Assembly (NCBI GenBank): GCA_001767455.1
Contig: MELC01000086.1
Coordinates: forward strand, 62,001 to 126,000
Reading direction: 5' to 3'
Source of the DNA: Acidobacteria bacterium RIFCSPLOWO2_12_FULL_66_21
Lineage (GTDB): Bacteria; Acidobacteriota; Vicinamibacteria; Vicinamibacterales; 2-12-FULL-66-21
DNA: 64,000 nt
Made by a program: the position numbers and the translations under genes. Shown here piece by piece: positions 6,103 to 57,539 of this stretch (within the stretch, counting starts at the first letter, position 1; every line of letters starts with the position of its first letter). Below the pieces are notes generated by a model, which was not told the DNA's origin, made no database searches, and worked only from the letters and a program-made list of their open reading frames with translations.

Positions 6103-6131
6103 AAAAACGGGCCGGCGCGTGGCCGGCCCGT
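6103..6131 (-). terminator. Intrinsic terminator of the porin-cytochrome operon
   Basis: A perfect 10-bp stem (ACGGGCCGGC at 6107-6116 with its complement at 6122-6131, five-base loop) lies 21 bases past the stop codon of the last operon gene. Read on the minus strand it is followed directly by TTTTTCTT. Stem, GC content and U-tract all fit a Rho-independent terminator. Confidence 0.85.
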
Positions 6132-6151
6132 TGTCCACGTCAGCGATCCGT

Positions 6152-8518
6152 CTAGAAGCGATAGCTCAGTCTCAAGTAGCCGACGTTCGCCTTGTACGGT
6201 CCGTCGTTCGCCTTGAGGTAGGTCAGGACCGACTGCGGCAAGGCCGACGTCTCGGCATTGAAGGCATCCGCGTAGTCGTACTTCTCATACGCGTAGCCCA
6301 GGCTCAGTGTCGTCCTCGCGTTGGCGTTGTAGGCCAAGTCCACCATGACGTTGGTCAGCTTCGTGTCGTCGTAGTCGGTGATGTCCTGGGCCCCCCCGGT
6401 ACCCGCGGGAATGAGGGTCGTGCGGCCCGGCGTGTAGAACGAGCCGGCCTCCCTTGCCGTGATGTCCATGAGACCGTTCACCTTCTGGTGGGTCGCCGAC
6501 GTCGAGAAGGTCCACTTCTCCGGCACGAGGTGAATCACCGCGTTCACGCCGAAGGTGTTGCCCTTGTCGCTGCCGCGGTAGTTGAGTTGGTTGTTGAGCG
6601 CGGTGCCAGTGAGCGTGGCCCACTGGTTGGTCTCGACGGTCTTCTCATACGTATAGAAGGCGCTGAGCTCGGCGCGCTCGTTGGGCGTGAAGTCGAAGTC
6701 CACGCTGTAGGTGTCGTACTTCGCGTTGAGCAGGCCGCTCGGCGTGCCGGGTATTTCCGGCGAGCCGGCCGCCGTTGCCCGTCGGTTCGGCCGGTTCGGG
6801 TAGTCGTCGTTCCGGCGGAAGTACGCGAACGTCACACCGTACTTGCCCGACGGTGTCAGTTCGATGTCCAGGCCGGTGCGCGTCGCCTCGCGCTCGGCGT
6901 GATCCGCCATCACTCCCTGGGTGGCAGCGCGGGCGGTCGGTTCGAAGCCGCTGACCGTGCGCTTGGCCTGGTCGAAGGTCCCGCGGAATCCCACCCAGTC
7001 CCTGGCGTGGAACACGGCTGCCAGAGTGTAGCCGTTCTCTTTGTTATCTGTTCCGGACGAGAAGTTTCGGCCGACCCATGAGCTCTGGTGGTTGCGATAC
7101 CCGCCCTCGAGGGTGAGGTCCTTGATGTCGTAGCTGACCTGCGCGTCAAACCGCCCGGTGCTGGCGTCGGTCCGGTTCGCGGTCGCGTGACCGTAAGGAT
7201 CGTCCGCCGTCGGGGCGTCGGCGGCGCTCCACAACCGGTCCGGAGAGCCAGACGTGTGACCCGTGATGACGTAGCGCGCCGACTTGTCCTTGTAGCCGTA
7301 GCTGCGATAGCGCAGGCGGATCCCGAGCCCCTCGGCCGGGCGCGTGAGGAAGCCGAGGTTCACCGACGTCGTGTTGATCTTGCCGTTCAGCGACGGCCGC
7401 TGGAGCGACGCGGTGGAATTGGCCGGCAGCCCGGTGCCCGTCGCGATCACCGAGTTGATCGTGTACGGAAGGAACGGCGCATTCTGCGTCCACGTGCCGA
7501 GCGCCACGTCGGCCATGAGACGGGTCTGCCGGGCGAACTTCAATTGGGCACCGAACGCGCCGCGGCTGGCCTCGTTGTCCGGGGAGGTGCTGAAGCGCGC
7601 CTGCGCGGGCCCGCCGGGCACGGAAGTCGAGGTGTACGCCAGGTCCGTCGCGCGGAACGGATTGTCGATGACGAGCGCATCCAGGCGGTCGTTGTAGAGG
7701 TTGCGGTTGAACGTGGCGTGCACGTTGCCGGCCTTGAAGTTGTAGGCAGCGCGTACCCCGTAGTCCGTGGTGACCTCGTTCATCCGCTCTCCGGCGTCCA
7801 CGGAGGTGGTGACCACGCCCATCACGTCGCCGCCGCTCGCGCCGCGATATCCGGTCTTGACCTCCCGCATGTAGGTGAACGCTAGGTCGAACGGCAGGTT
7901 CTTGGTGATGTCCACGTTGACATTACCGCGCTGCCGCAAGCCGCTGAGGTCGAGGCTGTTGGCCGACGCGAAGGTCGAGGCCAGCAGGCTGGAGTAGAAC
8001 GGGTAGTTGCGGGCGCTTGTCGGGACGGCATCGACCGCGCTGCCCAGCGCCTGGCGCACCGTCGGGCTCATGGTCCACACGCCCGCACTCGTCTCGGTGA
8101 ACAGCGTCTGACCGTCGTTCCCCATGTTGTGGGGAACCTGGTTGTAATCGAACGCGACGGCGAGCCAGCCGGTGTTCGCCCGACCGGTGTACCGCTGGTC
8201 TTTCTGGGAGATGTTCTTCCCGGCCAGCGCGAACTCCTTGTCGTTGCGGCTTCCCTGGAGGGAGAACACCGGCATCGACATGCCATTCGGGACGACGCGG
8301 TATTCCTGGAACTTCGAGGAAGACACGTCGTCGCGACCGAGGGGCATCAGGTTGACGTCGCCCTGGAACCAGTTGGGCGCCGGCAGCGCCGGCACGTCGG
8401 GCGCCGGAGTGGTCTGGCCCGGCTTCGGCGGAACCGGGGCCGTCTGGGCGTACGCGGGGATGCTCGTGGCGAGGAGCCCACAAGCGAGAACCACGGCGGG
8501 AAGATTGGTTCGCTTCAT
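6152..8518 (-). CDS. MtrB/PioB-family outer-membrane beta-barrel (decaheme-associated), copy 1
   Basis: This encodes 788 residues with a signal peptide (MKRTNLPAVVLACGLLATSIPAYAQ) and a body made of many alternating beta strands ending in YLRLSYRF, whose terminal Phe is typical of outer-membrane barrels. Length, strand pattern and the immediately preceding decaheme cytochrome (three bases away) mark it as an MtrB/PioB/MtoB-type porin that holds a multiheme cytochrome inside the barrel and lets electrons cross the outer membrane. The N-terminal CxxC seen in some MtrB proteins is absent. It is the last gene of the cluster, followed by a strong terminator. A second homologue lies at 16504. The family is clear; the direction of electron flow is not. 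Confidence 0.9.
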   Translation of the reverse strand: MKRTNLPAVVLACGLLATSIPAYAQTAPVPPKPGQTTPAPDVPALPAPNWFQGDVNLMPLGRDDVSSSKFQEYRVVPNGMSMPVFSLQGSRNDKEFALAGKNISQKDQRYTGRANTGWLAVAFDYNQVPHNMGNDGQTLFTETSAGVWTMSPTVRQALGSAVDAVPTSARNYPFYSSLLASTFASANSLDLSGLRQRGNVNVDITKNLPFDLAFTYMREVKTGYRGASGGDVMGVVTTSVDAGERMNEVTTDYGVRAAYNFKAGNVHATFNRNLYNDRLDALVIDNPFRATDLAYTSTSVPGGPAQARFSTSPDNEASRGAFGAQLKFARQTRLMADVALGTWTQNAPFLPYTINSVIATGTGLPANSTASLQRPSLNGKINTTSVNLGFLTRPAEGLGIRLRYRSYGYKDKSARYVITGHTSGSPDRLWSAADAPTADDPYGHATANRTDASTGRFDAQVSYDIKDLTLEGGYRNHQSSWVGRNFSSGTDNKENGYTLAAVFHARDWVGFRGTFDQAKRTVSGFEPTARAATQGVMADHAEREATRTGLDIELTPSGKYGVTFAYFRRNDDYPNRPNRRATAAGSPEIPGTPSGLLNAKYDTYSVDFDFTPNERAELSAFYTYEKTVETNQWATLTGTALNNQLNYRGSDKGNTFGVNAVIHLVPEKWTFSTSATHQKVNGLMDITAREAGSFYTPGRTTLIPAGTGGAQDITDYDDTKLTNVMVDLAYNANARTTLSLGYAYEKYDYADAFNAETSALPQSVLTYLKANDGPYKANVGYLRLSYRF

Positions 8519-8521
8519 GGT

Positions 8522-9469
8522 CTACCTCAAAAAGAACGCGCCGGAGGGTTGGTTGGAGCCGTGGAGCTTGACGTGGCACTGCCGGCAGCTCCGCTCGATG
8601 AAGCGCGAACTCCTGGTCGGGTAGCCGCTCGGGGCTCCCGGCGGGGCGACCTGCACGCCCTTCTCGGTGTTGAGGTTGTCGCCCGACCCGAAGTGGCCCG
8701 AGCCCGAGAGGTGGCAGTTCCAGCAGAGATTCGGCATCTTTTGCGCCAGCAGCCGCGGGTGGTTGGTGCCGTGCGGTTCGTGGCACGTGATGCAGTCCTC
8801 TCGGACAGGCGCGTGCTCGAACAGGAACGGCCCGCGCTTCTCGGTGTGGCACGTGTAGCAGAGCTCGTTGACCGAGTCGGCCTTGATCATCTTCGGGCTC
8901 GCGCCGTCGTGCGGGTTGTGGCAGCTCGAGCAGCCCATCTTCCCCTCGCGCAACGGATGGTGCGAAGTGCGCATCGACTTCGCACGCTCGGACTTGTGGC
9001 ACGTGACGCAGGTTTCCGTATCGGTCCGCGTCTTCAACTGCGCCTTCTCGGACTTGAAGTTGTGGACGCTGTGGCACGACGTGCAGGCGACGTTGCGACG
9101 CGCATGCATGCTGCTCAGGAAGCTGGCCTGGTTGGCCTTCTCGTGGCAGGTCAGGCACGTGTCGTTGATCTGCTTCCCGGTCTTGTTCTTCAGCGTGGGC
9201 ACCGGCCCCTTCTCGCCAGCCATCTGACTCTTCGCGTGTTCGGCGACATCCGTGTGGCAGTTCGCGCAGCCTTGGTTGATGCCGGCGTGCTTGGTGCGCG
9301 CGAAGGGCGCGCCGACGACTTTGTCGTGACACGTCTGGCAGTCGGCGACGTTGAAAGCCGCGGGCGGCACCGCTGGCGGCGCCTGCGCGGCAGCCCGGAG
9401 GCCGCCGTTCAGCAGGACGGCCCCTCCGAGCAGCAGGGATATTCCGAGAACGGACAAACTCTGACGCAT
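8522..9469 (-). CDS. DmsE/MtrA-type decaheme c-type cytochrome, copy 1
   Basis: This encodes 315 residues from ATG 9469, which follows an AGGGGA ribosome site; a longer frame exists but lacks one. After a signal peptide come ten CxxCH heme motifs (CQTCH, CANCH, CLTCH, CTSCH, CVTCH, CSSCH, CYTCH, CITCH, CWNCH, CRQCH), the count of the DmsE/MtrA/PioA family, and the C-terminus GSNQPSGAFFLR matches the family ending. It should sit in the periplasm, inserted in the porin encoded three bases downstream. There is no gene for an extracellular MtrC-like cytochrome, so the pair is of the two-component PioAB kind. It is preceded by a 308-base gap that could hold an internal promoter. Confidence 0.92.
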   Translation of the reverse strand: MRQSLSVLGISLLLGGAVLLNGGLRAAAQAPPAVPPAAFNVADCQTCHDKVVGAPFARTKHAGINQGCANCHTDVAEHAKSQMAGEKGPVPTLKNKTGKQINDTCLTCHEKANQASFLSSMHARRNVACTSCHSVHNFKSEKAQLKTRTDTETCVTCHKSERAKSMRTSHHPLREGKMGCSSCHNPHDGASPKMIKADSVNELCYTCHTEKRGPFLFEHAPVREDCITCHEPHGTNHPRLLAQKMPNLCWNCHLSGSGHFGSGDNLNTEKGVQVAPPGAPSGYPTRSSRFIERSCRQCHVKLHGSNQPSGAFFLR

Positions 9470-9777
9470 AGGTCCCCTTTCGAGGCGGAGCGTTGTTACT
9501 GGTCCAACAGGGTCGAAGAGAAAGAAGCAGGCCGGACCCACCGGGACGCGGGCGGCCTGCGTTACGACGGCGTTTGTGCAAGCGGGACGCCCGCTGCGAA
9601 CCGGGGACAGGGCGTTTTTCGACGAGATTCCAGCCTGTTTCTGACCGTGGCCGGACGACTGATGAATTCGTCAACACCGATTCCATCGGGTTCCCGGCAA
9701 CGCGCCGGGCATCCGCCGGCAGTCGGCGGCCCGCGGTGTCGACGAACCGCAGGTCATCGGACTTTGAGGAGTGCTGG
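9470..9777. other. 308-base gap inside the cytochrome operon
   Basis: No gene is recognised here. The stretch contains small inverted repeats (for example CCGGCAACGCGCCGGG near 9693) and could hold an internal promoter or processing site separating the second decaheme-porin pair from the quinone module. Confidence 0.35.
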
Positions 9778-11022
9778 TCAGTGGGTCGGGTGTTTGGCGC
9801 GTTCGGCGAGCAGATAGGCGACGAGATCGGCGGAGTCGCCCGGTGCGAAGCGGGGCCACGTCTGCGCGCGGGCGCGCATCTGCTGCTCCATGCCGGCCGC
9901 GTGGTTCCACATCGCCGACAGCACGGCAAACGGCTCGTCGAGTCCCGGCAGCGCCGCCAGATCGGGACCGACGCGCGCGCCTCCGCCAATCGAGTGGCAC
10001 ACGCCGCAGTTCCGATCGAAGATCTCCTTGCCGTGCGCCGGCGTCCCGCGGACGGTCGCATAGTTCAAGAAATACAAGTACGCGATGATGTCGGCCATCT
10101 CCGGACCGGAGAACGTCACGCGGGGAATGCCGCGCCGCTGGAACTCGGCGATCATCGCCTGGCTGTGGTTCCACATCAGGCCGGCGATCTCCGACACGGA
10201 TCGCACGAGCTCCTGCGGCCGCGCGAGATCCGGACCGCCGTGGCCGCCGATCCCCGCGATCGAATGGCACGTCCTGCACTGCTTGCTCGCAAAGAGATCC
10301 CGGCCGCGCCGCGGGCTGCCCGGCTCGAAGTACACGCGCTCGCGGTTCGTGCCGACGCTGTCGGCCTGGAGGTACGCGAGCAGGTCGTTCATCTCCTGCC
10401 CGCTGAACTGCGGCCAGGGCACGCCGCTCGCGCGCATTGCCCGCGCCATCTCGGGGCCATGGTTCCACATGGCCTGCGCCAGGAAGATTGACGAGAAGCG
10501 GCCGCGGTACCGCTGCAGGCCCGGGCCGACCTTGAACCAGTTGGTGCTCGACTCGTCGTGGCAGCGGACGCACCCCTTGACGGCGAAGACCCGCGCGCCG
10601 GCCGTCGCGTTGCCTGGCTTGCCAATCTCCGTGAGGTAGTACCGGTACGCAGTGAGGAACGCCGCCAGGTCCGCCATCTCGCCGCTCGAGATCGTCGGCG
10701 GCTGGATCTTCATGTCGCGCATCTTCTCGCGCATCACCGGCGCGTGGTTCCAGAACGCGCCCGCGAGATCCAGCATGGTCCCCGAGAACAGCATGCGGCC
10801 GAGATCCGGGCCGACCGGCGATGGCTGGCCGAGCGAGTGGCATTTGACGCAGTTCTTCTGAACGAACAGCCGCGCGCCGGCCGTCGGCTGATCCGGGAGC
10901 TCCACCGACAGCACGACCGAGCCGGCCTGGTCGCCAATCGCCGCGCGCGACGCCACCGCGACGGGCCACGCCGCCACCGCGAGGACGAGCGCCGCGAATC
11001 GCAACCACCGTCCTTTTTGCAT
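9778..11022 (-). CDS. Tetraheme cytochrome c built from four tandem monoheme domains
   Basis: This encodes 414 residues with an N-terminal signal peptide. It consists of four tandem domains of about 95-100 residues, each with one heme motif (CVKCH, CVRCH, CRTCH, CGVCH) and each with a conserved WNH motif followed by methionine (AFWNHAPVM, AMWNHGPEM, LMWNHSQAM, AMWNHAAGM), then a short helix ending in DL/AYL. This is a cytochrome-c fold repeated by internal duplication, with the Met of the WNHxxxM motif as a likely axial ligand. ATG 11022 overlaps the upstream NrfD stop as TGATG, so translation is coupled; a TTG at 11025 is less likely. By position it is the periplasmic shuttle between the quinone module and the decaheme-porin conduit. 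The heme count is seen directly; the role is inferred. Confidence 0.88.
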   Translation of the reverse strand: MQKGRWLRFAALVLAVAAWPVAVASRAAIGDQAGSVVLSVELPDQPTAGARLFVQKNCVKCHSLGQPSPVGPDLGRMLFSGTMLDLAGAFWNHAPVMREKMRDMKIQPPTISSGEMADLAAFLTAYRYYLTEIGKPGNATAGARVFAVKGCVRCHDESSTNWFKVGPGLQRYRGRFSSIFLAQAMWNHGPEMARAMRASGVPWPQFSGQEMNDLLAYLQADSVGTNRERVYFEPGSPRRGRDLFASKQCRTCHSIAGIGGHGGPDLARPQELVRSVSEIAGLMWNHSQAMIAEFQRRGIPRVTFSGPEMADIIAYLYFLNYATVRGTPAHGKEIFDRNCGVCHSIGGGARVGPDLAALPGLDEPFAVLSAMWNHAAGMEQQMRARAQTWPRFAPGDSADLVAYLLAERAKHPTH

Positions 11023-12446
11023 CAACGATCACCGTACAGGGGGCCAGTCCCCAGCGAGTATGCCCCGCTGGGGACTGGCCCCTTGTGAACTGGAACCTGG
11101 GAACTGGAGACTGGAAACTGGAAACTGGAAACTGGAGACTCTTCCTGTAATTCCCAGATCGAGATAATCGGAAACAACTTCGTGAATCCCATGTAAAGCA
11201 GCGCGAAGGCCGCGAAGCAGCCGGCCATCAGCGACCACTCGACCCAGCTCGGGATGTACAGAAACGTGTGCAGCGGCGCGCGCGGGTTCGAGAGCGACGG
11301 CACGACAATCGTGAACCGCTCGAGCCACATGCCGATGTTCACGGAGATCGACGCGATGAGCGTGCCCTTGATCGTCCGCGTCCGCGGGTTGCACAGGATG
11401 GCGAACGGCACGACAAAGCACGTGACGAACATCGTCCAGAAGAGCGGCGCGAACTTGCCGAACAGCTTGGCGTTGAACACCGCGATCTCGTTCGGCTCCT
11501 GCGCGTACCAGGCGGTCAGGTGCTCGGCGAACGTGAAATAGAGCCACAGGCACGCCATCACGAGCAGCAGCTTGCCGAGGTTGCCGAAGTGCACCGGCGT
11601 CAGGTATTCCTCCAGCGAATACACCTTGCGCACGATCACCATGGCGGTGATGATGGCGGCGATCCCCGAGAAGATGGCGCCGACGACGAAGTACGGGCCG
11701 AAGATGGAGGAGTGCCACATCGGCTGGATCGTCATGCCGAAGACCCATGACACGACGGTGTGCACCGACACCGCGATCGGGATCACGACGATGGCCATGA
11801 CGCCAATGGCGCGCTCGAGGCGGTGCTTCTGCTGCGGCGTGCCGCGCCAGCCGAGCGCGAGGCGCGCGTAAAGCGTGTGCCGCCAGCCGGTGGTCCGATC
11901 GCGCAGGATGGCGATGTCGGGGATGAGGGGCAGGAACAGATAGAACGTGCTGGCCGTGAGATAGACGGAGATGCTGGAGACGTCCCACAGCAGCGGCGAT
12001 CGGAACTGCGGGTGCAGGATCACGTTCAGCGCGCGATCCGGCCGGCCGAGATCCAGCAGGACGTTGCCGACGCCGAAGAAGAGCACGAGAACGGTGATGA
12101 CCTCCGCCATGCGCGTGATCGGCCGCCGCCACTCGGCCTGCACGATCCGCAGGATTGCGGAGATGAGCGTGCCGGCGTGCGACACGCCGATGAAGAACAC
12201 GAAGTTCGTGATGTACAGGCCCCAGTAGATCGGCCGTCCAAGCCCGGTGACGCCGAGGCCATGGCTCAATTGCCACGTCCAGGCGAAGATCGCCCAGCCG
12301 ACCACGAGCGACAGGCCGAACGCCCAGCGCCGGAAGCTCGCACCGACGGTCAGCACCGGCGCGATGATCGGCTCGATGTTCACGCCGCCCGTGTCCGATG
12401 ACGTGCGGTGTCTCGCGGCCGGCTCGACCAGAGCAACAGTTCGCAC
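11022..12446 (-). CDS. NrfD/PsrC-family integral membrane quinone-binding subunit (QrcD/ActC-like)
   Basis: This encodes a polytopic protein of about 474 residues with roughly ten hydrophobic helices (for example GLYITNFVFFIGVSHAG and LLVMACLWLYFTF). Such subunits bind quinol in the membrane and deliver electrons to an adjacent FeS/molybdopterin-family pair. GTG 12446 is preferred because GGGAGG lies about nine bases upstream inside the end of the FeS gene; GTG 12455 is an alternative. The long form starting at 12560 is a shadow. The C-terminal 35 or so residues (after ISIWELQEE) are low complexity, with SSFQFPVSSSQVPV encoded by an interspersed repeat and the last residues by half of a 17-bp palindrome, so the tail is probably acquired and dispensable. 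Gene order and the companion subunits resemble Qrc and alternative complex III. Confidence 0.9.
   Translation of the reverse strand: MRTVALVEPAARHRTSSDTGGVNIEPIIAPVLTVGASFRRWAFGLSLVVGWAIFAWTWQLSHGLGVTGLGRPIYWGLYITNFVFFIGVSHAGTLISAILRIVQAEWRRPITRMAEVITVLVLFFGVGNVLLDLGRPDRALNVILHPQFRSPLLWDVSSISVYLTASTFYLFLPLIPDIAILRDRTTGWRHTLYARLALGWRGTPQQKHRLERAIGVMAIVVIPIAVSVHTVVSWVFGMTIQPMWHSSIFGPYFVVGAIFSGIAAIITAMVIVRKVYSLEEYLTPVHFGNLGKLLLVMACLWLYFTFAEHLTAWYAQEPNEIAVFNAKLFGKFAPLFWTMFVTCFVVPFAILCNPRTRTIKGTLIASISVNIGMWLERFTIVVPSLSNPRAPLHTFLYIPSWVEWSLMAGCFAAFALLYMGFTKLFPIISIWELQEESPVSSFQFPVSSSQVPVHKGPVPSGAYSLGTGPLYGDR
11040..11150. repeat. Palindrome plus GGAAACTGG-type repeat invading the NrfD 3' end
   Basis: A 17-bp perfect inverted repeat has arms at 11040-11056 and 11066-11082 (GGGGCCAGTCCCCAGCG and its complement). 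It is followed by tandem GGAACTGG/GGAAACTGG words to about 11140. The same word family occurs at 42.9, 44.3 and 45.3 kb. Both elements lie inside the NrfD reading frame. Confidence 0.85.
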
Positions 12447-12447
12447 G

Positions 12448-13125
12448 CTACTCACCCTCCCGGAGGTACACGACCTTGGGTTTCGTGCCCAGCTCTTCCA
12501 TCCAGCGGAACGCGCGCGGGCTCGACGCCAGGCTCGCCACTTCGCTGTGCGGGTCGTCAAGGTCGCCGAACGACATGGCCTCCGCGGGACACGTCTGCAC
12601 GCATGCCGGAACGTAATCCTCCGCCGCGAGCTCGCGTCCTTCGGCGGCGACCTGCTCCCGCGCCTGCATCAGCCGGTGATGACAGAACGTGCATTTCTCG
12701 ACGACCCCCGTGGGACGCAGCGAGACGTCGGGATTCTGCATCCCGGCCATCGACTCGGGCCATTCGGGCGCCGTCCAGTTGAACAGCTTGACGCCGTACG
12801 GGCACGCGTTCGTGCAGTAGCGGCAACCGATGCATCGCGGGTAGATCTGCGCGACGATGCCTTCCGGATTCAGGTAGGTGGCGCCGGTCGGGCAGACGTC
12901 GGCGCAGGGCGGACGATCGCAGTGCTGGCACATCAGCGGCAGCGCCGTGGGGGCGGCCCGTCCCGGCATTTCCACCGGCACGAGCTGCATCCACGTCATC
13001 AGTCGTCCGGCGGCGGCGACCGCGCTCGTCGACAGCGGCACGTTGTTCTCGTGCTTGCAGGCCACGACGCAGGCCTGGCAGCCCGTGCAGCGGTCGAGAT
13101 CGATGACGAGTCCCCAGCGTGGCAT
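12448..13125 (-). CDS. Four-cluster ferredoxin-like FeS subunit (QrcC/PsrB-like)
   Basis: This encodes 225 residues without a signal sequence of its own, carrying the cysteine pattern of a four [4Fe-4S] electron-transfer subunit: CTGCQACVVAC near residue 15, CQHCDRPPCADVC near 66, CIGCRYCTNAC near 97, then CTFC and CVQTC. Such proteins wire a membrane NrfD subunit to a molybdopterin-family subunit; when they lack a leader they are usually exported as a hitchhiker with the Tat-dependent partner, here the protein encoded at 13396. Its stop TAG overlaps the region of the NrfD start, implying coupling. The upstream side is separated from the molybdopterin-like gene by a repeat cluster. Family is firm; the exact complex is inferred. 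Confidence 0.92.
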   Translation of the reverse strand: MPRWGLVIDLDRCTGCQACVVACKHENNVPLSTSAVAAAGRLMTWMQLVPVEMPGRAAPTALPLMCQHCDRPPCADVCPTGATYLNPEGIVAQIYPRCIGCRYCTNACPYGVKLFNWTAPEWPESMAGMQNPDVSLRPTGVVEKCTFCHHRLMQAREQVAAEGRELAAEDYVPACVQTCPAEAMSFGDLDDPHSEVASLASSPRAFRWMEELGTKPKVVYLREGE

Positions 13126-13148
13126 CTGTGGGTTCCTGACCTAACTGC

Positions 13149-13395
13149 GCGTTGCGACGTTCCCTGTTGCGCAGCCCTTTAGGGCTGCCCGCGGCCGCTT
13201 GGTGCTGCCCGCGGCCGTCCGGCAGGCCTGAAGGCCTGCGCAACAAGGGCCGCGGTTGACCGCTCCAATCGTCGACGCCGTCGTGAACGGTGCGTTGCGA
13301 CGTTCCCTGTTGCGCAGCCCTTTAGGGCTGCCCGCGGCCGTCCGGCAAGCCTGAAGGCCTGCGCAACAAGGGCCGCGGTTGACCGCTCCAATCGT
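13149..13395. repeat. Duplicated REP/BIME unit inside the operon
   Basis: Two near-identical direct copies (about 13149-13271 and 13292-13395) each contain a pair of inverted REP half-sites, GTTGCGCAGCCCTTTAGGGC and GGCAGGCCTGAAGGCC followed by TGCGCAAC. The second copy abuts the stop codon of the molybdopterin-like gene at 13396. The half-site is related to the REP units around the RAYT transposase at 57.5-58.3 kb. The cluster fills the only large gap between the complex subunit genes and could act as a processing or attenuation site. Confidence 0.85.
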
Positions 13396-15591
13396 TCACA
13401 CACGTTCGAGGCGGACACGTGTGGCTGCGGCGCTGCCGGCGGCCATCAGTTGACGCGAGTCCGACCGAATCTCGCGCGCCCATCGGCCGCCTTCGGGCAG
13501 AGCCGGCACGTGCGCGAGTGCGACGACATCGGGCTGCATGCCGTGAACGACCATCACGATGGCCGACATGGCGCCGCCCGGGGACACCACCTTGACCTTC
13601 GCGCCGGTGTCGATCCCCAGGGAGCGCGCCGTCTCACCGGCGATCTCGACCCAGGGCTGCCAGGGGATCCCCTCGGGCTGGCCGAGCAGCTCGTACAGCA
13701 CAGGCAGGTTCGGATCGGCGGCGCGGCTCGCGCTGGTCTCGAAGATCAGGAGGCGGTAGGGGAACTGCGCGCCCGCTGAGGAAGACGCATGCAGCGCCGC
13801 GGCCGCGATCGCGGGGGCCGCACCCGGTGAGCTGAACGTCAGACCGTGGCGCGCATCGAGCGTCGAGCGGATTTCTCCGTCCTGGAAGAACGGATCGACC
13901 CAACCGCCCGCACCGAGCACCGCCTGGCGGAACGCCTGCGGCGTCTGGCTGCCCGACGTCCACCAGCCGCCTTTCTCGAGCTGGAGCAGCCACTCGGTCT
14001 CGTAGGCGCTCGTGTAGGCGCCGCCGCGGCGCATCTGTCCGACTCTTTCCAGCTCGCCGATCACGAGATCTTCAGCAGTGGTCCAGGGGCACGCAGCCGC
14101 CGCCGGACCGCCGAGCGCGCGTGCGACGTGCGCCAGCGTTTCGGCGGGATCCCGCGTGTCGAGGCGCGGCTTGACGACCGGCGCGGCGCACGCGATGGCT
14201 TCGCCCGGGGGAACCGCCGCGGCGCGCACGGCGTGCCACGATTCGATCGGCGTGTGCGCGGGCAGCAGGAGGTCGGCCAGCGTCGAGGTCTCGTCCAGAT
14301 ATGGCGAGAAGCTCACGATGAAGTCGGCCGACGCGAACGCCGCGTCCGGGCGCTCGACGAGCGACGAGCGGCGCAGGGCCGAGCCGTCGCGCAGCGCCAG
14401 CACCGCCGGCCTGATCCGTCCGGCTGCGATGGCCTCTATCGGCCCGGCCGCGTCCTCGATGCCGTCCGGCGGCGCCGTGGCGGCGGCGTAGATCCCCCCC
14501 GGCCGATCGTACGCGCCTACCAGCGCGTTGAGCGCGAAGACGGCATCGGTCAGCTCGCGGCTCGCGTCAGCCGCCACCGCGACGAGCGGCTGCGTGGTCG
14601 CGCTCAGCTCCCGCGCGAGGCGCAGGATGGTGACCACCGGAATACCGGTCAGCGCGGACACTTCGTCGGGAAGGTACGTGCGGACGACGTCGCGCTCGAA
14701 TTCGGCGTGGTTGCCGGCGAAGCGATCGAGAAACTGACGGTTGCCGCGGCTCTCGCGCGCGATGATCGCCGCGAGGCCATAGGCGAGAACCACCTGCTGC
14801 TCGGGCGTGAGCGCGAGCCATTCGTCGGCCTTGCGCGCCGTGGCGGAGCGCCGCGCGTCGACCTGCACCAGCCGCCCGCGCGATCGGCCCGCCTGCCGCC
14901 GGAATCGCCCGAAGCTGCGCTGCGCCCAGACGGGCGAGAGCCACGTTTCGGCAATCGGCGCCCCGAACGAGAGCACGTACGTGGCGTGCTCGAGATCGAA
15001 GAGCGGCTCGCGGTCGATACCGGTCAATGCGAGGAAGCCCGCGCGCAGGCGCGCCGAGGTCTGCGCCGGCGTCCACGCGACGCGCGCGTCGCACGCCGTC
15101 CAGAACTTCGTCCATCCATCGGCCAGCGGCCCGCGTTCTTCCATGCCGATCGCCAGCGGCCGCCGTTCCGTCGCCCGCGTCCCGGAGAGCCGCGAGGCGA
15201 GGATGGCTGTCGCCTCGTCCCAGGTAATCGCCGTCCAGCGATTCTCGCCGCGGGCGCCGGTTCGCTTCGCCGGTCCGATGAGCCGATCCGGATCGTAGTA
15301 CGCCTCGATGCCCGCCTGGCCGGACGCGCACAGGCGTCCGCGGCCGATCGGGCAGAGCGGGTTGCCTTCCACCTTCACCGGCGCGCCGTCCACCATGCGG
15401 ACGCGAATGCCGCACGCCGCTGCGCAGTCGCGGCAGACGCTCGGCGCCCACTCGGCGGGCAGCCGCGAGGGTCCACTCGCGAGCGCGTCGGCACGCGCGA
15501 GGTGGCGGCGGCCCCACTCGCCAAGCGTGATGCCGGCAAGCACCGAGCCGCTGTAGGTAAAGAAGTCGCGCCGGCTGAAGGAGGCGCTCAT
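13396..15591 (-). CDS. Molybdopterin-oxidoreductase-family subunit of a Qrc/ACIII-like complex
   Basis: This encodes 731 residues from ATG 15591, which overlaps the upstream stop as ATGA. A twin-arginine motif (SRRDFF, residues 6-11) directs folded export. An N-terminal FeS site is present (Cys53, Cys56, Cys60, Cys88), followed by the domains of the molybdopterin oxidoreductase family. Around residues 205-225 the sequence FGAPIAETWLSPVW stands where catalytic members of the family carry the metal ligand; it recalls QrcB and ActB proteins, which keep the fold but lack molybdenum and serve as electron-transfer subunits. A true substrate-reducing enzyme therefore seems less likely, but the cofactor cannot be settled by eye. 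Neighbours (pentaheme cytochrome upstream, FeS and NrfD subunits downstream) support the Qrc/ACIII-like view. The 849-residue frame starting at 15945 is an artefact of reading through the upstream gene. Confidence 0.85.
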   Translation of the reverse strand: MSASFSRRDFFTYSGSVLAGITLGEWGRRHLARADALASGPSRLPAEWAPSVCRDCAAACGIRVRMVDGAPVKVEGNPLCPIGRGRLCASGQAGIEAYYDPDRLIGPAKRTGARGENRWTAITWDEATAILASRLSGTRATERRPLAIGMEERGPLADGWTKFWTACDARVAWTPAQTSARLRAGFLALTGIDREPLFDLEHATYVLSFGAPIAETWLSPVWAQRSFGRFRRQAGRSRGRLVQVDARRSATARKADEWLALTPEQQVVLAYGLAAIIARESRGNRQFLDRFAGNHAEFERDVVRTYLPDEVSALTGIPVVTILRLARELSATTQPLVAVAADASRELTDAVFALNALVGAYDRPGGIYAAATAPPDGIEDAAGPIEAIAAGRIRPAVLALRDGSALRRSSLVERPDAAFASADFIVSFSPYLDETSTLADLLLPAHTPIESWHAVRAAAVPPGEAIACAAPVVKPRLDTRDPAETLAHVARALGGPAAAACPWTTAEDLVIGELERVGQMRRGGAYTSAYETEWLLQLEKGGWWTSGSQTPQAFRQAVLGAGGWVDPFFQDGEIRSTLDARHGLTFSSPGAAPAIAAAALHASSSAGAQFPYRLLIFETSASRAADPNLPVLYELLGQPEGIPWQPWVEIAGETARSLGIDTGAKVKVVSPGGAMSAIVMVVHGMQPDVVALAHVPALPEGGRWAREIRSDSRQLMAAGSAAATRVRLERV

Positions 15592-16070
15592 CGGTGGCAC
15601 GCCGCGCAGTCCTGGCTCGCGGCTTCCTGCTGGTGGCACGACACGCACGTCTTCATCTGCAGGCGGGCGGCCGCGCGAGGTGGCGGCGCGGTGCTCGCGC
15701 CGATCGTGCCGTGGCACGACCGGCAATCGAGCTGGCCGAGCACGACGTGACGCCGATGCGAGAACATCACGTGATCGGGCAGCCGCGTCAGCTTCACCCA
15801 GTCGATGTGTCCCGTCTTCGCCATCGCGTCCCACCGCGGCTGTGCCACGCCGGCCGGCGCCGTCGCGTGGCATTTCACGCAGACGGCCACCTGCGGCAGC
15901 GTCGCCCCCGCGGTGCGTTCGACGCCGGCGTGACAGAGGGCGCACGCCGCCCCCACATGCTTCGCGTGATTGAATGGAATCGGCTGCAGCGAGGAGGACG
16001 CGGGCAGCGCGACGATCCAGGCAATCGCGACGACGATGGTCACGCCGGCAAGCGCCAGCACCTTGCGCAT
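15588..16070 (-). CDS. Pentaheme class III-type cytochrome c (QrcA/ActA-like)
   Basis: This encodes 160 residues with an uncleaved-looking N-terminal membrane anchor (residues 4-22) and five heme motifs: CALCH 43-47, CVKCH 64-68, CRSCH 116-120, CVSCH 142-146 and CAACH 155-159. Additional histidines (FNHAKH, FSHRRH) provide distal ligands as in class III and cytochrome c7-like proteins. A membrane-anchored five- or six-heme cytochrome is the standard partner of the molybdopterin-like subunit in Qrc (hexaheme) and alternative complex III (pentaheme). Its stop overlaps the start of that subunit by the ATGA arrangement, so the two are translationally coupled. It probably passes electrons out of the complex into the periplasm. 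Confidence 0.9.
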   Translation of the reverse strand: MRKVLALAGVTIVVAIAWIVALPASSSLQPIPFNHAKHVGAACALCHAGVERTAGATLPQVAVCVKCHATAPAGVAQPRWDAMAKTGHIDWVKLTRLPDHVMFSHRRHVVLGQLDCRSCHGTIGASTAPPPRAAARLQMKTCVSCHQQEAASQDCAACHR

Positions 16071-16071
16071 G

Positions 16072-16494
16072 CTACCGATCCGATCCGGGTTTGCCCGCTT
16101 CCTTCAGCTTCTTGTCGTAGAGATCCTTCTTGCGGGTCTTCGAGTCGTACACGACGAACTCGTAGATCGCCTTGCCTTCGTCGGGCGTGATGTAGGAGCC
16201 GGCCTTCCGCATCATGCGCTTGACGTAGCGCTCCCACTCGTCGTCGAGCACGAAGTCGCAGTTGATCGCGCGCGCGGGCGTGTGGCAGTGCCCGCACTTC
16301 GCGAGGAACAGCTTGTAGCTCTTCTGCAGCGGCGCCGGGTACTTCGACACGTCGATCTTCGCGGGGCCCTTGTCGTACGCCAGGACCCGCGGTTCGAGCG
16401 GCGGATCCTGGTCCTGCGCGCGCGCGACGCGCATGAAGCCCGCGACCGCGAGTGCCGCCAGCATGGCGGTCGTTATGAGTCGTTTCATGGTCAC
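16072..16494 (-). CDS. Small monoheme c-type cytochrome
   Basis: This encodes 140 residues with a signal peptide (cleavage near RVARAQ) and one heme motif, CGHCH, in KCGHCHTPARAINC. The rest is short and charged (YVKRMMRKAGSYITPDEGKAIYEFVVYDSKT), as in small periplasmic cytochromes with DUF-type sequences near multiheme operons. It may start at the second ATG (16488). It lies nine bases after the porin stop and one base before the pentaheme cytochrome start, so it is an integral member of the operon. Likely role is a periplasmic carrier linking porin-bound decaheme cytochrome and the membrane complex. Confidence 0.82.
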   Translation of the reverse strand: MTMKRLITTAMLAALAVAGFMRVARAQDQDPPLEPRVLAYDKGPAKIDVSKYPAPLQKSYKLFLAKCGHCHTPARAINCDFVLDDEWERYVKRMMRKAGSYITPDEGKAIYEFVVYDSKTRKKDLYDKKLKEAGKPGSDR

Positions 16495-16503
16495 CCTCCG
16501 CAG

Positions 16504-18615
16504 CTACCAGAGATAAGTGAGGCGCAGCCACCCCGTGTGTGCCGCGTAGGGGCGGTAGACGTAACCGAGCATCAGCGTGCCCGGCATGTCGAGCCGGCTG
16601 ATGGTGGCCGGATCCATCGAGAAGTCGTTGACGGAGTACCGGTCGTAGGCGTAGACGAACCCGATGGCGACCCTCGGCGTCAGGAAGTAGCGCGCGTCGG
16701 CGGTCGCCCGCTGGAGCTCGTTCGTCACCGGCGGGAGCTGGCTCGGCGCCACAAGCGGGCTGTTCGGCGCCAGGGTGTAGCGGAACGTCGTCCTCGACCG
16801 GTTGAAGTTGTACGCGAAGCGCAGGTCTGTCTTCGGCGCGAGCTTCATGAGATCGAGGCTGGCGACGACGTTGTGCGCCTTGTCCGCGGAGTCGTCCGAC
16901 CAGTCGCGCGTCGGGTCGTTGAACTGCGCGGCATTCGCGGAGCGCGAGGTCTGCAGCGCGGCGTACTTCTCGAACGAGTACGAGAGCCCGGCGGAGACCG
17001 CCTCGTGCGGGACGAAGTCGGCCGTCACCGTGTACACGCGGTTCTCGTTGTTCCTCAGGCCGAAGCCCGTCCCGTTGTAGTCGTCCTTCCCGCGCGCCGC
17101 GGAAATCGAGAACCCGACGGCGGGTACTGGCGTGACCTGCACGAGGCCGGTGACGCGATCGCGGTTGCGGTCGGCGACGTCGTAGTGACGCATCGTGGGC
17201 TGCTCGTTTGCCTCGGTGAGCGCCCCGAGCTCGAACCCGGACCCGCGACGCACCGCGTGCTCGACAATCGCGCGCACGGTGAGCCACCCGAAGCTCGTGG
17301 CGTCGATCGACGTCCTGAAGACGTTGTCGGTCGTCGCCTCGAAGATGCGGAACGTGCGATCGACCTCTTCGCGGCCGTAGCCGACGCGAATCGCGGTGAA
17401 GGGAGCGGGCGTGAATGACGCGTCGAGGTCGATGTTGTGGCGCGTGGAGCTGATCGGCTCGCTCGTGTGGCCCGTCCCCACGTTCTGATCCATCACGACC
17501 ATGCCGGGCGAGGCCGAGAACGGCGCCGTGCGGTTGTCGAAGTCGTAGTAGCGATACCTCGCGTTGAACCACAAGAGCCGGTTCGGCCGTGACGTGAAGT
17601 TGTAGTTCATCGCCAGCGTGTTCGCCTTCGCGTCCGCGGTGGGACGCGGCAGCGACGCGGCGGCGGACACCGACGCCGAATTGATGGTGAACGGCAGGAG
17701 CTCCTGGTCCTGGTTCCAGCGGCCGACCGACACGTTGCCGGTCAGGCGGCTGCGCGCGGGCAGCTTGATCGAGGCCGCGGTGCTGATGCCGGTCATCGTG
17801 CTCGACGGGGGCAGCGAGTAGCGCCCCTGCGAGCCGGCGGTCGCGATGTCGGTGGCGCGGAGCGGGTTGTCCCAGGTGAGCGTCTCGATGTGGTTGGTGA
17901 ACCACGAGGCGTCGTACCCGATGCGCAGCATGCCCCGGGCGTTCGCCCATTCGACGCCGGCGTTCATATCGGTGGAGCGCGTGTCGATCGGCGCCGGGAG
18001 CTCCACGGCATTGCTGAAGCCGAAGGACGCGGCCATCGGCATCGAGCCCTCGCGCCTGGCGCTGCGGACGTTGACCTTCACGTCCACGTCGCGGACCGGC
18101 GTGTAGATGAACCTGAATTGCGCCGTATCGCGTCTCGAGCTGAGCTCCACCGGCGAGGCTCCGCCCACGACATCCCCGATCTTCAGGGTGCCGTCCTGGA
18201 TCGACTGCCGGAAGGTCCCGGCCAGGCGGTACTCGCCCGGTCGCGACGTCGAATACAGCGTGCGCGTGTCCCCGCTGATGAACAGCGGCACCTGGTCCCA
18301 CAGGAACAGCATCTTCACCTTGCCGTGGGCGACAAGTTCCGCCTGGTAGCGTTGATCGCGCCAGCCCACGCGGTCGGCCGACGCGGCGAACACCCAGCCG
18401 CTGCCGTTGCGTTGCAGGCGGAAGCGGTCCAGGAGCACGCCGCTGCCGAGATCGCGGAAGTGCTGCGCGCGGGCGGCATCCCCCTCGATGCTCGTGGCCC
18501 GAAAACCGATGTCGACGGACCCCGGCTGCGGCACCGGCTGCGGGGCCGGCTGCTGGGCCGCAAGCGGAGACGCGACGAGGAGCGCCGCCGTCAGGAGACC
18601 AAATCGATTGCGCAT
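16504..18615 (-). CDS. MtrB/PioB-family outer-membrane beta-barrel, copy 2
   Basis: This encodes 703 residues with a signal peptide (MRNRFGLLTAALLVASPLAAQ) and a long run of alternating amphipathic strands ending in WLRLTYLW, an aromatic C-terminus suited to barrel assembly. It is the homologue of the protein at 6152 but clearly divergent and 85 residues shorter, so the two copies are old paralogues or separately acquired. It follows the second decaheme cytochrome by 21 bases and so forms a porin-cytochrome pair with it. The family call rests on length, strand pattern and neighbours. Confidence 0.88.
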   Translation of the reverse strand: MRNRFGLLTAALLVASPLAAQQPAPQPVPQPGSVDIGFRATSIEGDAARAQHFRDLGSGVLLDRFRLQRNGSGWVFAASADRVGWRDQRYQAELVAHGKVKMLFLWDQVPLFISGDTRTLYSTSRPGEYRLAGTFRQSIQDGTLKIGDVVGGASPVELSSRRDTAQFRFIYTPVRDVDVKVNVRSARREGSMPMAASFGFSNAVELPAPIDTRSTDMNAGVEWANARGMLRIGYDASWFTNHIETLTWDNPLRATDIATAGSQGRYSLPPSSTMTGISTAASIKLPARSRLTGNVSVGRWNQDQELLPFTINSASVSAAASLPRPTADAKANTLAMNYNFTSRPNRLLWFNARYRYYDFDNRTAPFSASPGMVVMDQNVGTGHTSEPISSTRHNIDLDASFTPAPFTAIRVGYGREEVDRTFRIFEATTDNVFRTSIDATSFGWLTVRAIVEHAVRRGSGFELGALTEANEQPTMRHYDVADRNRDRVTGLVQVTPVPAVGFSISAARGKDDYNGTGFGLRNNENRVYTVTADFVPHEAVSAGLSYSFEKYAALQTSRSANAAQFNDPTRDWSDDSADKAHNVVASLDLMKLAPKTDLRFAYNFNRSRTTFRYTLAPNSPLVAPSQLPPVTNELQRATADARYFLTPRVAIGFVYAYDRYSVNDFSMDPATISRLDMPGTLMLGYVYRPYAAHTGWLRLTYLW

Positions 18616-18636
18616 GTTCGATTCCTCCGTCCGCGT

Positions 18637-19569
18637 CTACCGCTGAAAGAACTGACCCGACGGATGGTTCGATCCGTGGATGTTGGAATGACAGTTCACG
18701 CACGCGCGGCCGACGAGCCGGCTGCTCTTCGACGCGACCGCGTTCGCGTCATACACGCTCGCGGGGTGCTGCCTGTGAACATGGCAGCGCTGGCAGAGCA
18801 TCGGCGCGCGGGCGACGAGCATGCGGTCGTTCGACGAACCGTGCGGATCGTGGCAGGTCGCGCAGCTCTCCCGCGCCGGGGGGTGATCCCACAGGAACGG
18901 CCCGCGCTTCTCGGCGTGGCAGCTCGTGCAGAACTCGCTGACCGTGTTCCCCGCGCGCAGCATGCGGACGTTGGTCGAGCCGTGCTGGTTGTGGCAGCTC
19001 GTGCACTCCATCTTTCCTTCCCGCACCGGCATGTGCGACGAGCGCTGGATCTTCGCGGCCTTCTCGCGATGGCACTGTCCGCAGGTCGCGGTGACGGTTT
19101 CCTGCTTCAGTTGACCGGTCTCGGACTTCGGTGTGTGCACGCTGTGGCAGTTCACGCACGTGACGTTCCGCGCGTCGTGCATGCTGCCCTGCCACTGCGA
19201 GTGTTCTTCGCGGTTGTGGCACGTCATGCACGTCTCGCTCGCCTCGCGCGGCGTGATCTTCTTGAAGTTGCGGAGGCGGCCCTTGGCGCCGACGTCCTCG
19301 ATATGGCCGCTCCCTGGCCCGTGGCAGGTCTCGCAGGCGGAAGCGGCCGCCGGCGTGCGCGGGTCCCACGCGCGCGCGTGCGGGCTGTCCTTGTACCCCT
19401 TCGCCTGTACCTCGTGGCAGCTCATGCACTTCGCGGCGCCCACGTAGCCGGGCTTGAGCCCCGGCTGCGGCGTCTGCGCGGTGCCCGCGGTGTGCGCGGG
19501 CAGCAGCAGCAGCCCCACGGTCCCGAGGAGCAGCCCGCACATCCACGTTCCAAGCGTTCTGTTCGCCAT
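18637..19569 (-). CDS. DmsE/MtrA-type decaheme c-type cytochrome, copy 2
   Basis: This encodes 310 residues from ATG 19569 (a CGGAGA site lies upstream; an alternative start at 19596 would overlap the preceding gene). A signal peptide precedes ten heme motifs: CMSCH, CETCH, CMTCH, CVNCH, CGQCH, CTSCH, CTSCH, CATCH, CQRCH and CVNCH. The C-terminus GSNHPSGQFFQR is the same family signature as in copy 1. It should occupy the barrel encoded immediately downstream. The spacing of the first three hemes differs from copy 1 because of an insert (about residues 55-85), so the two conduits may have different potentials or partners. Confidence 0.92.
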   Translation of the reverse strand: MANRTLGTWMCGLLLGTVGLLLLPAHTAGTAQTPQPGLKPGYVGAAKCMSCHEVQAKGYKDSPHARAWDPRTPAAASACETCHGPGSGHIEDVGAKGRLRNFKKITPREASETCMTCHNREEHSQWQGSMHDARNVTCVNCHSVHTPKSETGQLKQETVTATCGQCHREKAAKIQRSSHMPVREGKMECTSCHNQHGSTNVRMLRAGNTVSEFCTSCHAEKRGPFLWDHPPARESCATCHDPHGSSNDRMLVARAPMLCQRCHVHRQHPASVYDANAVASKSSRLVGRACVNCHSNIHGSNHPSGQFFQR

Positions 19570-19586
19570 GTTCGTGTCTCCGCGGC

Positions 19587-20033
19587 TCAGCGCCATTTCG
19601 CGCCGTCCTTCTCCGGATTGAGGCTCATGAGGTATGCGATGAGATCGTCGAGCTCGCCCGGCGTCATGCGACCGCCGAAGCCCGGCATGCGGTACGGGGG
19701 ACGCGCCGCTTTGGAATCCGCTTTGCCCACCGTCGGTGTGCCCTCGATCAGCAGCTTGCGCAGTTCAGCCCGCGTGTAGCCTTCCGCCACGTAGATGACC
19801 GCCGGCACCTTGCCCTCGGTTTCGGCGTTCGGGTTGGCAAAGCCGCCGCGGCCTTCGGCCCCGTGGCAGAGGCCGCATCCGTAGCGGCGATACACCTCGC
19901 GGCCGCGCGCCCCGGGAGTGGCGTGCGCGGCCGGAGGTGCGGTGCGAACGACGGACGGCGCGGGAGGCCGCGTCAGGACGCGGACGCCGAAAGTGAGCGT
20001 GACGAGCGTCACCGCTGCGATCGCTCGAACCAT
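19587..20033 (-). CDS. Monoheme cytochrome c, first gene of the operon
   Basis: This encodes 148 residues with an N-terminal hydrophobic segment (signal or anchor) and a class I cytochrome c domain: heme motif CGLCH in RRYGCGLCHGAEGRGG, and MPGFGGRM about 65 residues later providing the axial Met, then a terminal helix DDLIAYLMSLNP. It is the promoter-proximal gene; the operon promoter must lie in the 190 bases upstream, next to a short-repeat tract and a receptor pseudogene. It stops 17 bases before the decaheme start. Likely a periplasmic electron carrier. Confidence 0.9.
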   Translation of the reverse strand: MVRAIAAVTLVTLTFGVRVLTRPPAPSVVRTAPPAAHATPGARGREVYRRYGCGLCHGAEGRGGFANPNAETEGKVPAVIYVAEGYTRAELRKLLIEGTPTVGKADSKAARPPYRMPGFGGRMTPGELDDLIAYLMSLNPEKDGAKWR

Positions 20034-44255: not shown

Positions 44256-44274
44256 GAATAAGACCTCGTTGATT

Positions 44275-44390
44275 GGCAAGTTGCCAGTTACCAGCTACCA
44301 GCTTCCAGCTACCAGCTTCCAGCTTCCAGCTTCCAGAGGATCACGCTCTCAGCCGGAAACTGGGAGCTGGAAACTGGAAACTGGAACCTA
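44275..44390. repeat. Inverted CCAGCTTCCAG / GGAAACTGG repeat in operon gap
   Basis: About six CCAGCTTCCAG-type words (44283-44338) are followed by opposed GGAAACTGG words (44350-44390), so the RNA can fold into a long hairpin between the FeS and NrfD genes. Confidence 0.82.
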
Positions 44391-45269: not shown

Positions 45270-45284
45270 TCTGCGTGTCCTCAC

Positions 45285-45415
45285 GTCAGCGTCCAGCTTC
45301 CAGTTCCCAGCTTCCAGCTTCCAGCAGCCACCAGTGGTCAGCGTCCAGTTCCGAACTTCCAGCTTCCAGCGAGACACCGCTGAAAGCTGGCGACTGGAAA
45401 CTGGCAGCTGTCACC
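45285..45415. repeat. Inverted CCAGCTTCCAG repeat in operon gap
   Basis: About seven CCAGCTTCCAG-like words (45288-45375) face opposed AAAGCTGG and GACTGGAAACTGG words (45381-45412). It is the third such tract within one operon. Confidence 0.8.
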
Positions 45416-57478: not shown

Positions 57479-57538
57479 GTTGCGCAGCCCTTTCGGGCTG
57501 CCGCCCGCGGCTCCTGTTGCGCAGCCCTTTCGGGCTGC
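57479..57538. repeat. Two REP units downstream of the RAYT gene
   Basis: GTTGCGCAGCCCTTTCGGGC followed by TGC occurs at 57479-57501 and 57516-57538. They are inverted relative to the seven-unit array at 58081, so the transposase remnant is bracketed by REPs pointing outward from it. Confidence 0.88.
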
Positions 57539-57539
57539 C

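Follow-up and report, generated by a model that had tools for sequence, protein, structure and literature searches.

In the best-known model organisms, an outer-membrane conduit and its partner quinone enzyme are often encoded by separate genes, so that matching one with the other needs genetics. The locus described here, in a window of 64,000 nucleotides from an acidobacterium of soil or groundwater, raises the question whether both halves can be encoded together, and in which direction electrons would then flow. An earlier, sequence-only reading had seen eleven minus-strand genes with about 32 haem motifs, most junctions overlapping or shorter than 25 bases, and a strong terminator at the end. 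All eleven open reading frames (g1 to g11) are present on the minus strand from 20033 to 6152, and their order and families were borne out. The numbers of CXXCH motifs from g1 to g11 are 1, 10, 0, 1, 5, 0, (1), 0, 4, 10 and 0; since the motif in g7 (CTFCH) belongs to the 16-cysteine pattern of a four-cluster Fe-S protein, the total is 31 haem motifs rather than 32. Eight of the ten junctions measure -10 to +21 bp, including all those between g1 and g6. The exceptions are g9-g10 (308 bp) and g6-g7 (270 bp), the latter opened by a REP-like repeat cluster (13143..13395, no strand assigned; repeats of 55-83 nt in direct and inverted orientation), of which a second copy of the unit lies at 57480-58321. 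Of the strong terminator, the hairpin itself was found 3' of g11 (6106..6132, minus strand; an 11-bp stem with 9 G-C pairs and a T-rich tail), but terminator-like sites as a class are not commoner than chance (8 versus 7.7 in shuffled sequences). This hairpin is the longest of these sites and is rightly placed at the end of the cluster.

Both decahaem-porin pairs that had been recognised consist of a DmsE/MtrA-type decahaem cytochrome and an MtrB/PioB-type porin. In conduit A, the cytochrome g2 (18637..19596, minus strand) has 10 CXXCH motifs, scores 249 bits against TIGR03508 (cut-off 192) and matches MtrA (6r2q_A) with E = 1.6e-59, and the porin g3 (16504..18615, minus strand) matches PF11854 (E = 2e-103) and TIGR03509 (268 bits, above the cut-off). 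In conduit B, the second DmsE-family cytochrome g10 (8522..9469, minus strand) also has 10 CXXCH motifs and scores 229 bits against TIGR03508 (cut-off 192); the second porin g11 (6152..8518, minus strand) matches PF11854 (E = 5e-51), and the best PDB match of its predicted structure is MtrB (6r2q_B, E = 1.8e-25). Both g2 and g10 have a hydrophobic N-terminal segment, and they lie 21 bp and 3 bp, respectively, from their porins. Each pair thus combines what defines the MtrAB, PioAB and MtoAB conduits, that is, an exported ten-CXXCH decahaem cytochrome of the DmsE/MtrA type and an adjacent MtrB/PioB barrel. The sequence-only reading had allowed for unrelated barrels; the PF11854 matches and the g11 model identify true MtrB-type porins. 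A search of the genome for a surface decahaem cytochrome of the MtrC/OmcA type (TIGR03507) gave no match, and we reject a surface cytochrome of the MtrC type on this ground.

Between the two conduits lies what had been described as a Qrc/ACIII-like set of NrfD, Fe-S and molybdopterin-like proteins (ACIII, alternative complex III), all on the minus strand. The best NCBIfam matches of g5, g6 and g7 are indeed QrcA, QrcB and QrcC, and g8 is an NrfD protein (PF03916). The QrcA/ActA-like g5 (15588..16070) is a cytochrome anchored by a single N-terminal transmembrane segment, and it has five CXXCH motifs, as its relatives do. The QrcB/ActB1-like g6 (13396..15591) begins with a Tat signal (SRRDFF), the QrcC/ActB2-like g7 (12448..13125) has 16 cysteines in four sets, for four Fe-S clusters, and g8 (11022..12446) is a quinone-binding membrane subunit most like ActC (6f0k_C, E = 2e-70). 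All four stay under the equivalog cut-offs of QrcA-D, with 82 of 180 bits for g5 (NF041781), 222 of 440 for g6, 268 of 400 for g7 and 52 of 570 for g8. In g8, all 13 N-side and five of the six P-side channel residues of ActC are kept. At the quinone site S164 and D169 are kept, but H139 is changed to D and D253 to V in all nine members of the clade described below. We were not able to find ActD, ActE or ActF beside the ActABC-like genes; there is no second NrfD in the unit, and g8 is followed by g9 and conduit B. Canonical ACIII-like sets are present at other loci of the source genome. The likeness to Qrc and ACIII therefore holds, but the module is neither of them: the equivalog scores, the haem number of g5, the missing ActDEF and the changed quinone site speak against a canonical complex of either kind.

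The four cysteines of the [4Fe-4S] cluster FS0 in g6 (C53, C56, C60 and C88) are invariant. On the other hand, the position aligned to the Mo-ligand cysteine of ArrA and PsrA is Q177 in g6 and A, D, P or E in its relatives. As the Mo ligand is missing in all homologues checked and the [4Fe-4S] site is kept, g6 would be an electron relay and not a reductase; by its residues, it appears to be a molybdoenzyme relic that serves as scaffold and relay.

Three small cytochromes complete the cluster, all on the minus strand. The first, g1 (19587..20033), is a membrane-anchored or exported monohaem cytochrome c (CGLCH; PF00034, E = 7e-11) with homologues in the same cassette of most relatives. The tetrahaem g9 (9778..11025) consists of four consecutive PF00034 stretches with 4 CXXCH motifs, and a gene of this type comes after NrfD in clade members. 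The third, g4 (16072..16494), is a small monohaem cytochrome of a family without a name, with zero matches in Pfam and NCBIfam. Its model is all-helical and of low confidence (pLDDT 64), and a fold search with it returned nothing significant, the best weak match being Chlorobium cytochrome cz. The gene g4 is a conserved marker of the cassette (61-67% identity across clade members) and is elsewhere paired with Cyc2-like genes: in other families of Acidobacteria, its relatives come after Cyc2-like genes and before Rieske/cytochrome b or QrcAB.

The close clade of the g6/NrfD module, which has full support in g6, was found in nine of the 162 genomes of the order, patchily across several families; those relatives that bear a name are uncultured MAGs. 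A porin-decahaem pair lies near the Qrc-like genes in eight of the nine clade members with readable flanks, and the ninth has a Cyc2-like port. The order g4 - QrcA - QrcB - QrcC - NrfD, with or without the tetrahaem gene behind it, and a g1-type cytochrome are constant, whereas the outer membrane is served by differing ports, drawn from three kinds of MtrAB-type pair and a Cyc2-like fusion of cytochrome and porin. Pairs of the A type occur in the window and in G013, G023 and G012, pairs of a C type (about 900 aa) in G033, G039 and G125, a Cyc2-like port alone in G099, and A-type, C-type and Cyc2-like ports together in G094; at two loci (L043 and L050) the ports are located at contig ends. Furthermore, two clusters of Qrc genes with a port belong to other branches (G035/G018 and G274).

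The Cyc2-like proteins are longer than 400 aa, and their fused barrel is putative. As criteria for Cyc2 we used AXPXFAR[QK][TY] before a single CXXCH, PXL after it, a fused barrel and a length of at least 365 aa. The strict motif is found at three loci (L172, L173 and L176). The two one-haem reading frames of the clade, of 521 aa (L044) and 488 aa (L045), are Cyc2-like and differ from the motif by one residue (FARKF instead of FAR[QK][TY]).

A gene-order search in Acidobacteriota, proposed in the sequence-only reading, thus shows that the linkage of the Q-module (g5-g8) to an outer-membrane conduit is conserved among relatives. Of the continuous wire from the quinone pool to the surface in a single operon this linkage stands, but conduit B has to be taken out of it. 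A pair of the g10-g11 type occurs alone, without the Q-module, in six genomes with readable flanks (G004, G022, G033, G038, G040 and G048) and in G080 on a short contig; only in the source genome does it adjoin the module, 308 bp from g9. The notion of two exits of one operon is given up accordingly, and we reject a conserved two-port operon. The neighbours of the solitary pairs (penicillin amidase, OsmC, a sortilin-like protein and a peptidase) gave no clue to a substrate. Conduit B would be an extra, normally independent port that here came to lie next to the module and may use its periplasmic pool as well.

We infer that the cluster probably encodes a respiratory circuit dedicated to linking the menaquinone pool with the cell exterior, a judgement that leaves direction aside. 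In such a circuit, g8 would provide the inner-membrane quinone site; on the periplasmic face, the Fe-S clusters of g7 and g6, followed by the g5 haems, would conduct the electrons; the next carriers would be g4, g9 and g1, small cytochromes that are soluble or anchored; and the decahaem g2, threaded inside the barrel g3, would cross the outer membrane. The Q-module and g4 would form the constant core, with an exchangeable port (one of three decahaem-porin pair types or a Cyc2-like protein). It is consistent with this circuit that the genome has no OmcA/MtrC-type cytochrome, as in the two-protein MtoAB and PioAB systems of iron oxidisers. The extracellular partner is likely Fe(II)/Fe(III) or a redox equivalent, for example humic quinones.

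As to direction, flow to the surface had been assumed, whereas the Cyc2-like proteins that replace the MtrAB pair in the cassette of relatives speak more for inward flow; Fe(II) oxidation is the activity of characterised Cyc2 proteins (PMC8406198). The absence of an MtrC/OmcA-type terminal reductase also argues against outward flow. We favour inward flow and give it about an even chance. On the other hand, a chance somewhat short of even goes to a circuit in which g8 oxidises menaquinol and g2-g3 release electrons to Fe(III), Mn(IV), humics or a partner cell. The 13 retained N-side residues fit this, because ActC belongs to the quinol-oxidising ACIII (PMC8076601); quinol oxidation is the usual reaction of ActC relatives, and a role in iron reduction was proposed for the ActABCD-tetrahaem clusters of MBNT15 (PMC9386147). 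The one-residue deviation of the clade's Cyc2-like proteins also has to be counted against inward flow. Moreover, RuBisCO was sought in the genome and not found, and there are two haem-copper oxidases; both would suit a heterotroph, in which electrons could just as reasonably flow outward to Fe(III) or humics. We know of no lithotrophy in the source lineage. With inward flow, one could tentatively go further and suppose, though we would not bet on the whole of it, that Acidobacteriota possess a standard "quinone terminal" (g4 and a Qrc/ACIII hybrid whose quinone site is of the Asp type) into which MtrAB- or Cyc2-type ports were plugged in evolution, and that it serves iron oxidation or electron uptake, with the Qrc-like complex reducing menaquinone.

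Alternatively, two unrelated units may have come together, a Qrc-like complex for ordinary periplasmic donors and conduit genes adjacent by chance or shared transfer. Conduit B is already such an independent unit, and many Qrc-like loci of the phylum have no conduit nearby. However, the source genome contains about six porin-decahaem pairs in 6.5 Mb, so that a random gene would be expected to have only about 0.02 of them within 10 kb, and a conduit is found in every member of the g6 clade with readable flanks; the type of conduit changes while the linkage stays, and the gaps from g1 to g6 measure -10 to +21 bp. We consider this explanation improbable. Still harder to believe is a system of the DmsEFAB kind, in which g6 acts on a soluble substrate (iodate, DMSO or arsenate) and is exported or wired via the decahaem-porin pair: the decahaems are DmsE-family by name and g6 combines a Tat signal with molybdopterin domains, but Q, A, D, P or E replaces the Mo-ligand cysteine across the clade, g6 matches QrcB best and not DmsA, ArrA or PsrA, and the QrcA-type pentahaem partner is conserved, so that we reject the soluble-substrate molybdoreductase that had been considered before.

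In the probable circuit, conduit and quinone enzyme are co-encoded, and their pairing is conserved though the port changes. Together with the replacement of MtrAB by Cyc2-like proteins, this suggests g4 as a common periplasmic carrier to which either port delivers. The cassette may serve as a marker by which extracellular electron transfer can be recognised in genomes of a phylum abundant in soil and groundwater, and it opens to experiment the standing question whether electrons from outside the cell can be used by Qrc/ACIII-type complexes to reduce quinone.

Among known systems, MtrCAB, DmsEF and Geobacter Pcc/Ext share the multihaem cytochrome within an outer-membrane barrel; the present cluster has no extracellular cytochrome or molybdoreductase and co-encodes its quinone complex. 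Also comparable are the ACIII-like clusters of MBNT15, with ActABCD and a tetrahaem cytochrome (PMC9386147), and one Oslofjord MAG, OFTM248, in which a porin-cytochrome complex is followed downstream by ACIII-like genes (PMC10732223); the available portions of these two papers describe neither the conserved cassette nor g4 nor port exchange. ACIII itself (ActABCDEF) has in common the ActC-like membrane subunit, a pentahaem ActA, and a Mo-free B1 with an Fe-S B2, whereas here B1 and B2 are separate genes, ActD, ActE and the second NrfD (ActF) are not adjacent, and His139 and Asp253 of the quinone site are replaced. QrcABCD of Desulfovibrio, a menaquinone reductase, has the same subunit set (multihaem A, cofactor-poor molybdo-like B, four-cluster C and NrfD-type D); g6 shares the lack of a Mo site with QrcB, and g8 has an Asp at the quinone-site position as QrcD does (Asp120). 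However, QrcA has six haems and g5 five, g8 is ActC-like and far from the QrcD model, QrcB is described as cofactor-less while g6 retains its four FS0 cysteines, and the partner of Qrc is TpIc3/hydrogenase instead of an outer-membrane port. The Cyc2 - Cyc1 - ACIII/bc1 pathway of iron oxidation resembles those relatives in which a Cyc2-like port stands beside g4 and the Q-module or beside g4 and a bc complex, though the port of the window is MtrAB-type and the Cyc2-like proteins of the clade deviate from the motif. Finally, MtoAB-MtoD-CymA of Sideroxydans lithotrophicus and PioABC of Rhodopseudomonas palustris likewise have a decahaem cytochrome with an MtrB-type porin, no surface cytochrome, a small periplasmic carrier and an operon-like arrangement, and Mto also has a linked quinone-reactive protein. 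In Mto this is the tetrahaem CymA, whereas here the inner-membrane partner is a four-subunit Qrc/ACIII-like complex, the carrier g4 stands outside any named family, and the ports are exchangeable.

The linkage between the quinone module (the Qrc-like genes g5, g6 and g7 with the NrfD gene g8) and an outer-membrane conduit, or port, is conserved while the port itself changes, since the ports of close relatives fall into distinct groups in the decahaem and porin trees. A gene-order search in Acidobacteriota, proposed by the sequence-only reading, found the linkage kept in relatives and the port type not constant. When all 162 genomes of the order were searched, g6 relatives of at least 50% identity occurred in nine genomes from several families, and a tenth (G023) has a g6 fragment only; 396 genomes sampled across the phylum yielded none beyond the order. 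In a 35-sequence tree this g6 clade sits on a long stem and is supported at 100%. Its members with named records are MAGs of Acidobacteria or Terriglobia, and their isolate names point to permafrost, groundwater and soil.

The order is g1-decaA-porA-g4-QrcABC-NrfD-tetrahaem in the window (deca, decahaem; por, porin; cyt1, g1-type cytochrome), (decaA-)porA-g4-Qrc in G013 and G023, decaA'-porA'-cyt1-g4-Qrc-tetrahaem in G012 and decaC-porC-cyt1-g4-Qrc in G039. A divergent decaC-porC adjoins g4-Qrc in G033 and G125; G099 has cyt1-Cyc2-like-g4-Qrc, and G094 has cyt1-decaA'-porA'-cytochrome-Cyc2-like-g4-Qrc-tetrahaem plus a divergent decaC-porC, while the order in G080 is cut off. With some six decahaem-porin pairs in a 6.5-Mb genome, about 0.02 would be expected by chance within 10 kb. 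In the QrcB tree, two further branches (G035/G018 and G274) have an adjoining port of their own; near most other Qrc-like loci the flank scan found none. The G274 locus (L084:3226-14352), from another branch of the phylum, is operon-like and reads tetrahaem-pentahaem-tetrahaem-QrcB-QrcC-NrfD-decahaem-923-aa porin. Cyc2-like fused cytochrome-porin genes replace or join the decahaem-porin pair within the cassette of two relatives (L044:12139-13704, minus strand; L045:9949-11415, plus strand).

The cluster itself comprises eleven minus-strand genes, from 20033 to 6152 of the window, with 31 haem motifs (g1 1, g2 10, g4 1, g5 5, g9 4, g10 10); CTFCH in g7 was rejected as a haem motif, being part of the g7 Fe-S pattern. 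The intergenic distances from g1 to g11 are -10, 21, 9, 1, -4, 270, 1, -4, 308 and 3 bp, and a terminator-like hairpin (6132-6106) marks the end. REP-like palindromic repeats (TTGCGCAGCCCTTTAGGGCTGC) occupy the 270-bp gap between g6 and g7 (13143-13395) and are clustered again at 57480-58321; in relatives with both genes called, the g6-g7 junction varies between an overlap and a gap of 144 bp. About 1.3 kb upstream, on the same strand, lies a PQQ-dependent dehydrogenase (21326-23551; PF01011, E = 1e-148). A second NrfD gene and an Fe-S subunit gene (42984-45377, minus strand) adjoin a two-component system (40812-42873) and are by position unrelated to the cassette.

In family-model searches both decahaems, g2 and g10, passed the DmsE-family cut-off. 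Among solved structures, g2 comes closest to MtrA from the Mtr complex (6r2q_A, E = 1.6e-59). The porins are MtrB-type, as had been proposed, and not unrelated barrels, because g3 and g11 belong to the MtrB/PioB family and a model of g11, the weaker match (14 sequences, mean pLDDT 65), best matches MtrB in the PDB (6r2q_B, E = 1.8e-25; runner-up 5e-10). The window's genome has six MtrB-type porins in all; elsewhere it carries three more decahaem-porin pairs (contigs C29, C30 and C58), a porin at the end of contig C77 and a decahaem close to an end of C38.

The second pair, g10-g11, forms a lineage of its own. Relatives of g11 occur in eight genomes (51-61% identity), with a weaker one (36%) in G125. 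Wherever flanks were readable, no quinone module was found beside such pairs in other genomes, and in G033 the two are on different contigs. Since the pair stands alone elsewhere and a 308-bp gap precedes g10, g10-g11 is an independent two-gene conduit that is here a neighbour of the module, and the earlier idea of two exits of a single operon was not upheld.

The small monohaem g4 matched no named family in family-model searches; its conservation is strong (61-67% identity), and by profile search it has relatives in further families of Acidobacteria. At L171, L172, L173, L176 and probably L178, the g4 relative comes after a protein of 411-487 aa that has a single haem at its N terminus and the Cyc2 motif (as described in PMC8406198), strict in three of them. 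Several g4 relatives in other families lie before Rieske/cytochrome b or QrcAB, and in G035 a large MtrB-type porin is followed by two g4 copies. We infer that g4 is the periplasmic carrier common to MtrB-type and Cyc2-like ports. The five loci, where the g4 relative lies together with a Cyc2-like gene and with either QrcAB or a bc complex, are candidate iron-oxidation clusters; some adjoin sigma-54-type response regulators.

The solved structure nearest to g8 is ActC of alternative complex III (6f0k_C, E = 2e-70). Mapping the ActC residue list of PMC8076601 onto g8 and its relatives, we find 13 of 13 N-side and 5 of 6 P-side channel residues kept in g8, with one N-side Asp being Glu in L041. 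At the quinone site all nine clade members keep Ser164 and Asp169 and have His139 changed to Asp and Asp253 to Val; L047, L056, L058, L088 and L091 retain His and Asp at 139 and 253. Asp at the His139 position is the state in QrcD and several other NrfD proteins (PMC8076601).

The carriers would be ordered in the circuit by their family roles. Inward electron flow seems slightly favoured, at about an even chance, because of the Cyc2-like replacement of the port, the QrcD-like Asp in g8, and a conduit that, like MtoAB and PioAB, has two proteins and no surface cytochrome (none of the MtrC/OmcA type was found in the genome). Outward flow, which we hold to be somewhat short of an even chance, draws support from the ActC ancestry of g8, oxidases that are those of an aerobic heterotroph, the failure to find RuBisCO, the one carbon-fixation marker searched for in the genome, and a proposal that similar clusters serve iron reduction (PMC9386147).

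We found no description of the cassette or of port exchange in the literature covered, which excludes most subscription papers, and their novelty is provisional. The best NCBIfam models are QrcA for g5, QrcB for g6 and QrcC for g7, all under the equivalog cut-offs, and g5-g8 together form a hybrid of Qrc and ACIII that lacks ActDEF. ACIII-like clusters occur elsewhere in the genome (contigs C37 and C90). At L055 and L054 lies a third type of Qrc-like complex, whose A subunit has seven haems; the Mo position is occupied by Ser, and Gly replaces one FS0 Cys. Q177 of g6 aligns with the Cys that ligates Mo in ArrA and PsrA, and relatives carry A, D, P or E. QrcB has been described as cofactor-less (PMC6303296), whereas g6 and its aligned relatives all keep the four Cys of their N-terminal cluster, and therefore g6 is not simply a QrcB.
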